Below, in pieces: positions 7,770 through 11,545 of a stretch of 11,545 nt of DNA. The notes beneath the pieces were generated by a model. That model had not been told where the DNA came from. It saw nothing but the letters and a program-made list of their open reading frames with translations, and ran no database searches. Numbering within the stretch: position 1 is the first letter of the stretch; every line of letters begins with the position of its first letter. The translations under genes were made by a program, and so were the position numbers. Source of the DNA: Balneolaceae bacterium (lineage in GTDB: Bacteria > Bacteroidota > Rhodothermia > Balneolales > Balneolaceae); the NCBI GenBank assembly GCA_003555185.1, contig PWFZ01000282.1, forward strand, positions 1-11,545, read 5' to 3'.

Positions 7770-7800
7770 TTGCATTTAAAACAGAGTTGGTTTAGCTTTG
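7770..7800 (+). promoter_or_regulatory. Bacteroidota-type promoter of the trp operon
   Basis: TTG at 7770-7772 is followed after 20 nt by TAGCTTTG at 7793-7800, matching the TTG / TAnnTTTG promoter with the spacing described for Bacteroidota (about 17-23 nt). The expected start of transcription is only a few nucleotides past 7800, at or next to the leader-peptide ATG at 7805. The assignment is by consensus only. Confidence 0.6.
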
Positions 7801-7804
7801 AGGC

Positions 7805-7876
7805 ATGCAATTAGCGAATAATCATATCAATTGGTGGTGGCCGAATAAAACATATTTGGCAGTGGAATCGATATGA
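7805..7876 (+). CDS. trpL: trp operon leader peptide with three tandem Trp codons
   Basis: A 23-codon frame from ATG (7805) to TGA (7874-7876). The peptide begins MQLANNHINWWWPNK, with three consecutive TGG codons at 7832-7840. Trp is rare, so three in a row in a tiny frame just upstream of trpE marks a transcription-attenuation leader peptide. The ribosome stalls on these codons when charged tRNA-Trp is scarce. The Trp codons sit directly at the left arm of the first RNA hairpin (7840-7846), and the stop codon lies just past the second pairing segment, as the mechanism requires. The ATG is only 4 nt after the -7 promoter element, so the message is probably leaderless or almost so; leaderless trpL is known in Sinorhizobium meliloti. 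No Shine-Dalgarno is visible. Confidence 0.85.
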   Translation: MQLANNHINWWWPNKTYLAVESI

Positions 7877-7936
7877 TTGAATGTTTTTAATGAAATTTTT
7901 AAAAACCCACTGCAGTTAACTGTAGTGGGTTTTTTT
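7840..7936 (+). promoter_or_regulatory. Trp-codon transcription attenuator with alternative RNA hairpins
   Basis: Three competing pairings can be drawn. The 1:2 hairpin pairs GCCGAAT (7840-7846) with ATTTGGC (7854-7860), 7 bp around a 7-nt loop. The 2:3 antiterminator pairs GCAGTGG (7859-7865) perfectly with CCACTGC (7907-7913). The 3:4 hairpin is the intrinsic terminator at 7901-7936. A ribosome stalled on the Trp codons (7832-7840) would mask 7840-7846, free segment 2 to pair with segment 3, and allow readthrough into trpE. A ribosome reaching the TGA at 7874 would cover segment 2 and leave the terminator to form. The 1:2 and 2:3 arms share only two bases (7859-7860), so exclusion between them may rely on crowding as well as base competition. 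Confidence 0.85.
7901..7936 (+). terminator. Intrinsic terminator of the trp attenuator
   Basis: ACCCACTGCAG pairs with CTGTAGTGGGT around a TTAA loop (7916-7919), with one G-U pair. A run of seven T (7930-7936) follows, and its complementary run of five A lies at 7901-7905. It ends 11 nt before the trpE ATG, so it can only work as a conditional terminator for this operon. Confidence 0.9.
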
Positions 7937-7947
7937 ATGTAAACAAT

Positions 7948-9414
7948 ATGACATTATCTGAATTTAAAAAGCTTGCAGAGACATATACTGCAATTCCTGT
8001 ATCGCGAAGAATGCTTGCTGATGTTCTTACGCCCGTTTCACTGTTTTTATCCATCAGACAAAATGCAGAGTACCCATTTCTGTTCGAGTCAGTTGAGGGT
8101 GGGGAGCATTTGGCGAGGTATTCCTTTCTGGGAAAAAACCCATATCAAGTGCTTCGGTTCGATGGTGACTTTGTAACGCTCACCGAAGGGGATGGTGAAC
8201 CTATTTTATTAGACGCGCCCTATTTTGAAGCATTGGAGAACTTAACAACACAACATTCAGAACCAATACTGCCTGACTTGCCACGACTCACAGGTGGAGC
8301 CGTTGGATTTTCATCTTACGATACCGTTCGGGAAGTTGAAAACCTTCCCAATGTACCGGAAAGTGATCACGATCTGCCGGAGGCAATCTGGTCATTTTAT
8401 GATGAGGTGTTTGCTTTTGATCATGTGAAGCAGCAGATCGTGCTTATGAAAACCGTGTTTGTTGATGGTGAATCAGATCTTGAAAAACTCTATAAAGATG
8501 CACATAAGTCATTGCAGAATATGGATAAAGTGGCTGTACAAAGCGTAAATCCAATGGAAGCTTTTTCTCTGGACGCAAATAAGCTGAAAAGCAATTTGAA
8601 AAAAGAGCGTTTTCATGAAATTGTTGAAAAAGCGAAGGAGTACATATACGAAGGGGATATTTTTCAGGTAGTATTATCACAACGGTTTGAGGTTCCTTTC
8701 GAAGGGGACCGATTTACACTTTACCGCGCACTGCGGATGGTAAACCCATCTCCGTACCTATTTTTCCTGGAATTCGGTGAATTTTCACTTGTGGGTTCCT
8801 CCCCGGAAGTTTTAGTACGGGTTACTGACGGTGAAGCACGATTGCTGCCCATTGCAGGAACCCGTCCACGCGGCAAGGATCATGAGGAAGACCTGGCGCT
8901 GGAAGTGGACCTGAAAAATGATCCTAAAGAGATCGCTGAGCATATTATGCTTGTTGACCTGGGTAGAAACGACCTTTCACGGGTTTGTCAGCCTGGATCG
9001 GTACACCTTGAACGGAATCAATCCATTGAGCGGTTTTCTCACGTGATGCATATTGTTTCAGATGTGGTTGGGGAAATGCAGAAAGGAAAATCTTCCGTAC
9101 ATGCTCTGCAACAATGTTTTCCGGCGGGAACTGTAAGCGGTGCACCTAAAATTCGGGCAATGGAAATTATTGATGAACTTGAACCCACAAAACGCGGTCC
9201 CTATGCAGGTGCTGTTGGTTATTTTGACTTTTCGGGTAATATGGACACATGTATAGCCATTCGTACCATGTTGGTTACAGACGGCTCAGTTTTTATCCAG
9301 GCAGGAGCCGGAATTGTGGCTGACAGCGATCCAGATAAGGAATTTGAAGAAACAAAAAGTAAAGCCGGGGCTTTAGTTGATGCCTTAAGCCTGGCTTTGG
9401 AAATAACAAAATGA
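7948..9414 (+). CDS. trpE: Anthranilate synthase component I
   Basis: Converts chorismate to anthranilate, the first committed step of tryptophan synthesis, using ammonia supplied by TrpG. The 488-residue length fits the family. The N-terminal domain carries FLFESVEGGEHLARYSFLG (44-62), the LLES-type loop whose serine (S48) belongs to the tryptophan feedback site, so the enzyme is probably feedback-inhibited. The chorismate-binding domain shows PIAGTRPRG (301-309), EIAEHIMLVDLGRNDLSRV (328-346), FPAGTVSGAPKIRAME (391-406), GPYAGAVGYF (417-426) and the closing QAGAGIVADSDPDKEFEET (451-469). These identify TrpE rather than PabB or isochorismate synthase, and the neighbours agree. The start is the ATG at 7948, 11 nt after the attenuator terminator, with no Shine-Dalgarno. 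trpS follows after 53 nt. Confidence 0.97.
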   Translation: MTLSEFKKLAETYTAIPVSRRMLADVLTPVSLFLSIRQNAEYPFLFESVEGGEHLARYSFLGKNPYQVLRFDGDFVTLTEGDGEPILLDAPYFEALENLTTQHSEPILPDLPRLTGGAVGFSSYDTVREVENLPNVPESDHDLPEAIWSFYDEVFAFDHVKQQIVLMKTVFVDGESDLEKLYKDAHKSLQNMDKVAVQSVNPMEAFSLDANKLKSNLKKERFHEIVEKAKEYIYEGDIFQVVLSQRFEVPFEGDRFTLYRALRMVNPSPYLFFLEFGEFSLVGSSPEVLVRVTDGEARLLPIAGTRPRGKDHEEDLALEVDLKNDPKEIAEHIMLVDLGRNDLSRVCQPGSVHLERNQSIERFSHVMHIVSDVVGEMQKGKSSVHALQQCFPAGTVSGAPKIRAMEIIDELEPTKRGPYAGAVGYFDFSGNMDTCIAIRTMLVTDGSVFIQAGAGIVADSDPDKEFEETKSKAGALVDALSLALEITK

Positions 9415-9467: not shown

Positions 9468-10460
9468 ATGAATAAGCAAAAAACGATTCTCTCAGGTATT
9501 CAGCCATCAGGTAAACTGCATATTGGCAACTATTTTGGTGCTATGAAACAACATATAGCCATGCAGGAGCAGGGCGATGCCTTTTATTTTTTGGCGAACT
9601 ACCACACGCTGACGTCATTAAGTGATGGCAACCTTCTGCAAGAAAACACGCGGGATGTGGTTTTAGATTACCTGGCATTAGGTCTTGACCCTGATAAATG
9701 TACATTTTTTGCACAGTCTGATGTACCTCAAACCACAGAACTTGCATGGATACTCGGTACTCTTACACCGGTATCATTGATGGAGAAAGGGGTTGCGTAC
9801 AAGGATAAAGTAGCAAATGGACTCAGTCCGAATATTGGGCTTTTCACCTATCCGATTCTTCAGGCAGCTGATATACTTATCTACCACTCGGATATTGTAC
9901 CTGTTGGTGAGGACCAAAAACAGAATATAGAAATTGCCCGAGATTTAGCCGGTAAGTTAAACCGTGCATTTGGCGATGATCTGCTAAAGATTCCTGAAGA
10001 GCATATTGTAAAATCTGTAGCAACCGTTCCGGGTGTCGATGGTCGTAAAATGAGTAAATCATACGGTAATACCATCGATATATTTGACGAAGGGAAGTCC
10101 TTAAAAAAACGGGTAATGTCTATACAAACAGATTCTAAAGCACTGGAAGACCCCAAAGATCCGGATCTTTGCAATGTTTATGCGTTGATTAAACTTTTCG
10201 CCGATGAAAATACACGAAATGAAATAGCTGATAAATATCGCTCAGGAGGATATGGCTATGGTCATGCAAAAAAGGAACTTCTTGGTCTGATAACAGATTA
10301 CTATGCTGAAGCTCGGCTCAGGCGAAAGGAGCTGGAAAAAAATCCATCATACATTAATGATGTGCTAACTGAAGGTGGTAAAAAAGCACGACTGCGGGCT
10401 GAAGAAGTGATGGAGCCGATTCGTGAAGCAACGGGCTTGTTTAGAAGCTTTAAGTACTGA
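9468..10460 (+). CDS. trpS: Tryptophanyl-tRNA synthetase
   Basis: Class I aminoacyl-tRNA synthetase that charges tRNA-Trp with tryptophan, in the cytoplasm. At 330 residues it is the normal bacterial TrpS size. The N-terminal signature SGIQPSGKLHIGNYFGA contains the HIGN form of the HIGH motif (18-21). The KMSKS loop is intact at 194-198 within DGRKMSKSYGNTID, and GEDQKQNIEIARDL (147-160) is the typical TrpS core segment. The protein looks complete and active. It is embedded between trpE (53-nt gap) and trpG (163-nt gap) on the same strand. Readthrough of the trp attenuator would therefore raise both tryptophan supply and tRNA charging capacity, unless trpS has its own promoter. I see no clear promoter consensus in the 53-nt gap. 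Confidence 0.97.
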   Translation: MNKQKTILSGIQPSGKLHIGNYFGAMKQHIAMQEQGDAFYFLANYHTLTSLSDGNLLQENTRDVVLDYLALGLDPDKCTFFAQSDVPQTTELAWILGTLTPVSLMEKGVAYKDKVANGLSPNIGLFTYPILQAADILIYHSDIVPVGEDQKQNIEIARDLAGKLNRAFGDDLLKIPEEHIVKSVATVPGVDGRKMSKSYGNTIDIFDEGKSLKKRVMSIQTDSKALEDPKDPDLCNVYALIKLFADENTRNEIADKYRSGGYGYGHAKKELLGLITDYYAEARLRRKELEKNPSYINDVLTEGGKKARLRAEEVMEPIREATGLFRSFKY

Positions 10461-10590: not shown

Positions 10591-10625
10591 ATACTCGATA
10601 CTTGTTACTTAATACTTACTACTAT
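10591..10625 (+). repeat. Degenerate 7-nt tandem repeat ending in the trpG start codon
   Basis: Successive heptamers read ATACTCG, ATACTTG, TTACTTA, ATACTTA, CTACTAT, sharing the core TACT at positions 2-5. The last unit runs into the trpG ATG (10624). Function unknown. Confidence 0.5.
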
Positions 10626-11220
10626 GATATTAATTATCGACAATTACGACTCTTTTACTTACAACCTTGTGCATATCGTAGCAGGGGTGAGTGAGGATTA
10701 TAAAGTTATCAGAAATGATGATCTGACTGTGGATGAAATACGTGAATTGAATCCATCAAAAATATTGATCTCGCCCGGACCCGGCCGGCCCGAAGATGCC
10801 GGTGTTACGGAAGAGGTTATTCGTGAGCTTGGAAAGGATATTTCGATCTTAGGAGTTTGTTTAGGTCACCAAGCTATAGGGCATGTATTTGGTGCAAAAG
10901 TGGTTCATGCTCCGAGTCTGATGCATGGTAAAACTTCTGTAGTGAATCATGACGGGAAAACGGTTTTTAAAGATGTTGGTGAGGGATTTACAGCGACACG
11001 ATATCACTCACTTGCCTTACAACCCGATAGCATTCCTGATGTACTGGAAGTAACGGCTAAAACACCTGATAACGTAATTATGGGAGTTCGACACAAAACA
11101 TTTCCAATCGAAGGAATCCAGTTTCATCCGGAAAGTATTCTTACTTTAGAAGGTCCGAAAATTATTCAGAACTGGTTGAAAATGACATTAAATAAAGTCG
11201 CTCAATTAACTGATAGCTAA
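10624..11220 (+). CDS. trpG: Anthranilate synthase component II (glutamine amidotransferase)
   Basis: Hydrolyses glutamine and channels ammonia to TrpE. It is a class I glutamine amidotransferase of 198 residues, normal length. Visible marks are IIDNYDSFTYNLVH (4-17), SPGPGRPEDAG (50-60), the nucleophile loop GVCLGHQAIG with C79, the HGKTS segment (101-105), RYHSLAL (126-132) and IQFHPES with catalytic H168 and E170. The catalytic triad is intact. In some bacteria this subunit is shared with p-aminobenzoate synthase (PabA role), but the position between trpE/trpS and trpD points to tryptophan. The TAA stop directly abuts the trpD ATG, which implies translational coupling. The start lies at the end of a degenerate heptamer repeat, with no Shine-Dalgarno. 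Confidence 0.96.
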   Translation: MILIIDNYDSFTYNLVHIVAGVSEDYKVIRNDDLTVDEIRELNPSKILISPGPGRPEDAGVTEEVIRELGKDISILGVCLGHQAIGHVFGAKVVHAPSLMHGKTSVVNHDGKTVFKDVGEGFTATRYHSLALQPDSIPDVLEVTAKTPDNVIMGVRHKTFPIEGIQFHPESILTLEGPKIIQNWLKMTLNKVAQLTDS

Positions 11221-11545
11221 ATGTTTACAGATATACTCGAGAAGATTTCTATTAGAGAAGAATTATCATCTGAGGAAGCATCTTCAGCTCTGCAAAAGAT
11301 CGTTGACGGAGAAGTTTCGAACGAAGAGGTTGCTGCTTTTTTATTTGGAATGAGAATTAAAGGCGAGTCTGTTTCAGAGCTCACCGCGTTTGTGAAAGTA
11401 ATGAGAAATGCCGCAACTTTGGTTGATGTAGATACGAAAGGTGCAGTAGATCTTTGCGGAACCGGGGGGGATAAATCCGGTACGTTTAACATTTCAACAG
11501 CAGCCATGTTCGTAGTTGCCGGTGCCGGTATACCGGTATTAAAGC
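11221..11545 (+). CDS. trpD: Anthranilate phosphoribosyltransferase, N-terminal part, truncated by window edge
   Basis: Transfers phosphoribose from PRPP to anthranilate, the second step of the pathway. The first 108 codons are visible. The N-terminal helical domain is followed by VDLCGTGGDKSGTFNIST, whose GTGGD (80-84) is the PRPP-binding glycine loop of the family. AAMFVVAGAGIPVLK follows, just before the window ends. The ATG begins at the base after the trpG stop, so the two genes are tightly coupled. The remaining roughly two thirds, with the rest of the active site, lies beyond the window. The sequence shows no frameshift so far. Confidence 0.95.
   Translation, partial: MFTDILEKISIREELSSEEASSALQKIVDGEVSNEEVAAFLFGMRIKGESVSELTAFVKVMRNAATLVDVDTKGAVDLCGTGGDKSGTFNISTAAMFVVAGAGIPVLK

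Follow-up and report, generated by a model that had tools for sequence, protein, structure and literature searches.

A predicted leaderless tryptophan attenuator upstream of trpE in Balneolales

In a contig from a Balneolaceae bacterium (assembly GCA_003555185.1, contig PWFZ01000282.1; the whole stretch of 11,545 nt is referred to here as the window), trpE is preceded by a short reading frame with three consecutive Trp codons. This raises the question of whether translation of that frame governs transcription of the trp genes behind it, and how it would do so. An earlier note on this DNA had proposed classical leader-peptide attenuation. We consider it highly probable from the sequences compared here that the region acts as a ribosome-mediated transcription attenuator, predicted to be leaderless, before trpE-trpS-trpG-trpD, and because the switch recurs in related bacteria, the regulator is well supported. 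The proposal of the earlier note stands in its WWW leader and its three stems, which are supported across the order; it had missed an outer stem and the promoter geometry, and the function proposed below for the cell is deduced from these parts.

Gene order and the Trp leader frame

The source genome comprises 2.66 Mb in 474 contigs, of which the window is one, and is 74.6% complete. Its best 35 trpE relatives (63–81% identity) all carry the name Balneolaceae or Balneolales or that of a genus within the group, and by this comparison the genome is near Balneolaceae, a family that NCBI taxonomy places in the phylum Balneolota and that GTDB keeps in Bacteroidota. On the forward strand of the window, trpE (anthranilate synthase component I, 7948–9414) is followed by a tRNA synthetase gene (9468–10460), trpG (glutamine amidotransferase, 10624–11220) and the start of trpD (11221–11545), which is cut by the window end. 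The synthetase is of the class I W/Y type (family by Pfam PF00579) and is read as trpS, its Trp specificity being presumed. A second close copy was not found in the same genome, where the next match shows 33% identity over 166 residues (E 4.5e-6). Of 35 Balneolales loci (L009–L043), 34 have a relative of this gene next to trpE, the single miss (L040) being cut short; none of 45 outgroup loci (L044–L088) has one within the DNA examined around each. The gene trpS is probably co-transcribed with trpE inside the regulated transcript, and since the two genes adjoin, the operon would respond to charged tRNA-Trp by adjusting both the charging enzyme and the pathway. Short frames rich in Trp (LEWWWAYH, LEWWWVYH, WQWQW) were also seen before trpE in L048, L050 and L087, which come from two Deltaproteobacteria and one further bacterium.

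The 23-codon frame described earlier is indeed present. The leader MQLANNHINWWWPNKTYLAVESI (7805–7876, forward strand) begins with an ATG at 7805 and ends with a TGA at 7874–7876, and its three tandem TGG codons, the putative stall site, occupy 7832–7840. Similar leaders, together with a terminator, passed our script in 83 of 94 Balneolales loci, window included. Named loci and G genomes overlap (e.g. L028/L119), so that some genomes are counted twice and the 94 loci represent fewer species; tests limited to a single locus from each genus address this overlap. A Trp-run leader is present in 27 of the 33 named loci whose trpE start could be read, and the remaining six are the marine clade L034–L039. 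A frame with WW or W.W was seen in 55 of 60 additional upstream regions (a few doubtful), representing 60 genomes and five families picked from the 118 of 128 order genomes that have trpE. Leaders are absent from the trpE upstream regions of L145, L146 and L158, and two of the 60 regions (L140, L153) have visible Trp leaders yet failed the script for leader plus terminator. Three of the 83 (L137, L144, L147) have a doubtful trpE start or leader and were omitted from the pairing, promoter and geometry tests.

A Trp-rich frame could in principle arise by chance in front of a plain promoter-proximal terminator and go unread by ribosomes, and the terminator here is very strong. However, an in-frame Trp run plus terminator occurred in 0/100 reverse-complemented and 1/1000 mononucleotide-shuffled trpE upstream regions, compared with 55/60 real regions of the order under the same control script, and a chance frame was rejected on these counts. 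The Trp run, the frame, the spacing and the pairing moreover recur in five families, which makes this explanation extremely improbable.

Pairing, folding and ribosome position

An attenuator with a leader peptide is expected to contain alternative RNA pairings. The stems named in the earlier note were borne out in the window, all on the forward strand. Segment 1 (7840–7846), the 5' arm of the 1:2 hairpin, pairs with the 3' arm (7854–7860) at 7/7 positions. Segment 2 (GCAGTGG, 7859–7865), which lies inside the leader frame and is overlapped by that 3' arm, is the 5' arm of the antiterminator and pairs with segment 3 (CCACTGC, 7907–7913), again at 7/7 positions; these two stems and the terminator core were checked base by base. 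Segment 3 also forms part of the 5' arm of the intrinsic terminator (3:4 hairpin and T-run, 7901–7936), whose core joins 7906–7915 with 7920–7929 in 10/10 pairs and whose T-run reaches to 7936, 11 nt before the trpE ATG at 7948. In the computed fold, A-U pairs between 7901–7905 and 7930–7934 extend this stem. Because segment 3 is common to both, antiterminator and terminator are mutually exclusive, and both are kept in relatives. Absent from the earlier note is an outer stem that surrounds the Trp codons, in which 7819–7828 pairs with 7870–7879, the latter overlapping the leader stop. It emerged from the fold and the pairing test, and a base-by-base check gave 10/10 pairs. The fold of 7780–7947 has an energy of -48.6 kcal/mol (z -4.99), and 0/200 dinucleotide shuffles were as low. 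For the RNA alone, the lowest-energy fold contains the outer stem, the inner hairpin and the terminator, i.e. the off state.

Conservation of these stems was assessed across relatives. Because gaps in the leader part of the MAFFT alignment A1 (24 of 28 sequences) made it unsuitable for the outer stem, arm pairing was compared directly: every genus was represented by a single locus, and its 5' arm was scored for pairing both with its own 3' arm and with the 3' arms of the other genera. Own arms paired better than foreign ones both for the outer stem (-12.2 versus -7.4 kcal/mol) and for the antiterminator (-15.5 versus -11.9 kcal/mol), each with 0/20000 permutations over 30 genera; two control regions gave 1751/20000 and 4737/20000. 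For the inner hairpin, the result was 1/20000 over 29 genera. Of the two layouts described below, type A gave 0/20000 (13 genera) and type B was weak by itself (951/20000, 15 genera). The outer stem ranks poorly among the 30 genera in some cases (L135 23rd, L161 21st, L159 17th, L149 15th). An earlier version of the test, with 26 of 28 sequences (L040 and L041, having no CAGYGG, were dropped), also gave 0/20000. On A1, the antiterminator pairs in 100% of cells and shows two-sided changes in 2/7 pairs, 9/500 shuffles being as high; the other 5/7 pairs are invariant, which was counted against it. The terminator pairs in 89.1% of cells, with two-sided changes in 4/10 pairs and a covariation score reached by 0/500 shuffles, and one of its pairs is unpaired in 22/24 sequences. 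Trp runs recur upstream of trpE, and all three stems of the earlier note find support across the order.

The Balneolales leaders and terminators recur across five families in two layouts. In type A (family f1), the leader frame contains segment 2 (usually CAGTGG or CAGCGG) and the stop normally comes after it, with early stops in L017, L136 and L139. Type B (f2–f5) leaders are in most cases shorter and have their stop codon within or next to segment 2, as in CTGAAAGCGG with CCGCTTTCAG. Of 124 order genomes, 61 contain the type A pattern, each exactly once, and none contains the reversed pattern; 60 of the 61 matches lie just before trpE as judged by eye, and the other, in G060, is at a contig end.

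Segment 2 is expected to be free when a ribosome stalls on the Trp codons and hidden when it reaches the stop codon. A ribosome was assumed to reach 12 nt past the first base of the codon in its A site, and one at the stop codon to span 18 nt upstream and 12 nt downstream of that codon; the 12-nt reach is taken from PMC4833913, and the 18-nt extent is our assumption. With these assumed footprints, a ribosome on the first Trp codon leaves segment 2 clear in 78/79 loci, and a ribosome at the stop codon covers at least 70% of segment 2 in 78/79. The sole exception to both counts is L141, for which the script probably took the wrong arm, and L155 could not be placed in the geometry and inner-hairpin analyses. 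The spacing of segment 2, which the earlier note had read as suiting stalling in the window, fits the stalling model across these loci, as far as geometry can indicate.

These features suggest how the switch would work. Transcription would begin at the leader ATG or a few bases from it, and a ribosome would load on the leaderless 5' end of the RNA. If none loads, segment 2 would be held by the outer stem and the 1:2 hairpin, so that the 3:4 terminator forms (off). Under a shortage of charged tRNA-Trp, the ribosome would stall on TGG TGG TGG and disrupt the outer 5' arm and segment 1; segment 2, thereby freed, could pair with segment 3, and transcription would continue into trpE (on). With charged tRNA-Trp plentiful, the ribosome would move on to the stop codon and mask segment 2, and the terminator would form (off).

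The marine Balneola/UBA clade (L034–L039) has a different arrangement before trpE. Approximately 56–186 nt upstream of the gene, its six loci contain a terminator and a conserved structured RNA with no Trp-codon leader; across the six sequences, 5 of 29 predicted pairs show two-sided change. Rfam matches were absent in L034, L037 and L039, the three of these loci that were scanned. This RNA is possibly another kind of attenuator.

Since the structured leader of that clade lacks Trp codons, another sensor may exist in the group, and one could suppose that a protein or small molecule (e.g. TrpRS or a Trp-binding protein) reads the RNA in the window as well, the leader frame being secondary. However, segment 2 sits at the stop-ribosome position in 78/79 loci even though the stop shifts between the two layouts, and Rfam gave no riboswitch or T-box match in the window and relatives scanned, so that a T-box or riboswitch was rejected. 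We therefore judge a sensor other than the ribosome to be very unlikely. A His leader was rejected separately: RF00514 (His_leader) scored 30.4 bits against a gathering cut-off of 49, and the leader contains one His.

Promoter and predicted RNA start

A leaderless leader mRNA is expected to begin at the leader start codon. In Flavobacterium psychrophilum, the promoter motif TAnnTTTG is reported at -12 to -5 (PMC9723704). The window carries such a -7 box, TAGCTTTG, at 7793–7800, and a -33 box, the TTG of TTGCATTT, at 7770–7772, both on the forward strand. With the Flavobacterium box spacing, from which the start site in the window was derived, the predicted RNA start is 7805, the A of the leader ATG; since the promoter box sets the start at or near this ATG, the leader mRNA is predicted to be leaderless. 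This geometry, absent from the earlier note, recurs in relatives. In 80/80 loci scored, the predicted start falls between 1 nt within the leader start codon and 4 nt ahead of it (-1 to +4 nt). The script, which picked the highest-scoring box of a fixed stretch together with the closest in-frame start codon, favours short distances. A sample of 25 loci beyond the order gave distances of -2 to +8, three of them with weak boxes.

It could be argued that attenuation is correct and the RNA nevertheless starts further upstream, with a normal 5' untranslated region. The start is borrowed from Flavobacterium spacing, and leaderless mRNAs are 5.5% of those mapped in F. psychrophilum (PMC9723704); in three loci of the Rfam family RF01692 (L241, L247, L250), at least 12 nt separate predicted start and ATG by eye. 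Against this, the -33/-7 pair stands at one distance in 80/80 loci, and shuffled upstream DNA passed both promoter checks in 61/1600 cases. A longer leader mRNA is thus unlikely, and we favor the predicted leaderless start.

Termination at such a leader would release a short leaderless mRNA like rnTrpL of Sinorhizobium meliloti (PMC7298713), and the terminated RNA or its peptide might act in trans besides its action in cis, as with rnTrpL/peTrpL. Many leaders share a His residue located shortly before WWW. However, the other residues vary widely, and in several genera the His codon region lies within the 5' arm of the outer stem, so that RNA pairing may explain the recurring His. A role in trans therefore seems unlikely, and action in cis on trpE is the reading retained here.

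Elsewhere in the same genome (contig C12, L251, 1202–1276), a His-rich frame, MKRHVFHSSYHHCYHNLDSHGHFA, precedes hisG at 1333, and a TACTTTTA box lies just upstream of the frame. Inspection by eye revealed no evident terminator at this frame, which is a possible his leader.

Distribution and known systems

Outside the order, 13/21 upstream regions of the same class and 12/19 of other classes passed a similar script (e.g. MRHVAYHSAHYFGWWWFSPAAVGRARA, MSQSVNHIVSSNNRWWWRSSVSKRTGMKTDS); these 40 regions were hand-chosen among the matches listed, not drawn at random, and Flavobacteriaceae-like trpE is represented through RF01692 only. In eight loci from other families (L205, L207, L208, L223, L224, L230, L232, L234), Tyr/Phe runs (TYY, YYF, YF, FF) precede the Trp run, as though these aromatic amino acids, too, were being sensed.

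A broader reading is held tentatively and with slightly less than even confidence: near-leaderless, translation-coupled Trp attenuation may be an ancient and widespread way of controlling trp genes throughout Bacteroidota, broadly defined. It would have been missed because Rfam models one branch, and with the leader start codon at the RNA start, no Shine-Dalgarno site would be needed. In Balneolales, the circuit would also control TrpRS, and would thus both sense tRNA charging and adjust the charging enzyme. Leader-peptide attenuation requires a ribosome closely behind RNA polymerase, and a phylum-wide spread would, if true, imply tight transcription-translation coupling, which to our knowledge has been little tested in this phylum. 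An order-wide, apparently leaderless Trp leader with look-alikes in other classes could provide natural reporters for this question. Translation starts in Flavobacteria are described as lacking Shine-Dalgarno sites (PMC9723704).

The earlier note held that an example in this lineage would be worth recording. Until their case in Firmicutes, Naville and Gautheret 2010 knew leader peptide systems from Proteobacteria and Actinobacteria only (PMC2965389). In Weinberg et al. 2010, Bacteroid-trp (RF01692) appears among the candidate cis-regulators of Bacteroidetes (PMC2864571), Rfam names it "Bacteroidete tryptophan peptide leader RNA", and it has been noted before the F. psychrophilum trp operon (PMC6414381). 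The F. psychrophilum transcriptome is also reported to hold clues for leader-peptide attenuation before amino-acid operons (PMC9723704). Given these precedents, the window is not the first case in the wider lineage, although the RF01692 model misses it: no match was found on the window at E up to 1 or in its own genome (gathering cut-off 49 bits). Among 198 genomes sampled, RF01692 matches in 20, 15 of them over the cut-off; 18 are in one family and none in the class of Balneolales. No paper on a Balneolota trp attenuator was found in the literature searched, which included few subscription journals and was not aimed at that name. Lopatovskaya et al. 2010 and reviews by Merino and Yanofsky may deal with Bacteroidetes.

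The E. coli trp leader joins Trp codons with 1:2, 2:3 and 3:4 pairings. The window resembles this type (RF00513, Trp_leader) in the same codons and pairings and differs in its outer stem and predicted leaderless start. RF00513 does not match the window at E up to 1, and in relatives it stays below its cut-off of 41 (L013 27.1 bits, the best; L177 23.9; L125 22.4). A leaderless counterpart is trpLE(G) of S. meliloti, where the RNA starts with the trpL ATG and attenuation acts on trpE(G) (PMC7298713); that organism is an Alphaproteobacterium with a 14-aa leader, and the likeness drawn here concerns the RNA start and the attenuation. Another close system is RF01692, in which 5 of 10 loci examined have a WWW frame (ATG-only scan), e.g. 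MQTILNNTWWWNNLRQTS. It shares with the window the WWW leader, an antiterminator arm near the leader stop, a terminator, and a long imperfect hairpin from before WWW to past the stop, as seen by eye in the RF01692 structure line. It differs in that most of these five WWW leaders are not leaderless by eye, L245 being near-leaderless. The window thus appears to carry a device of this kind, which the RF01692 model fails to detect, and the Balneolales leaders supply sequences with which Rfam could be extended beyond RF01692. The best reading is therefore that the predicted leaderless Trp attenuator is a regulator of a known kind, not unprecedented, in a leaderless variant.
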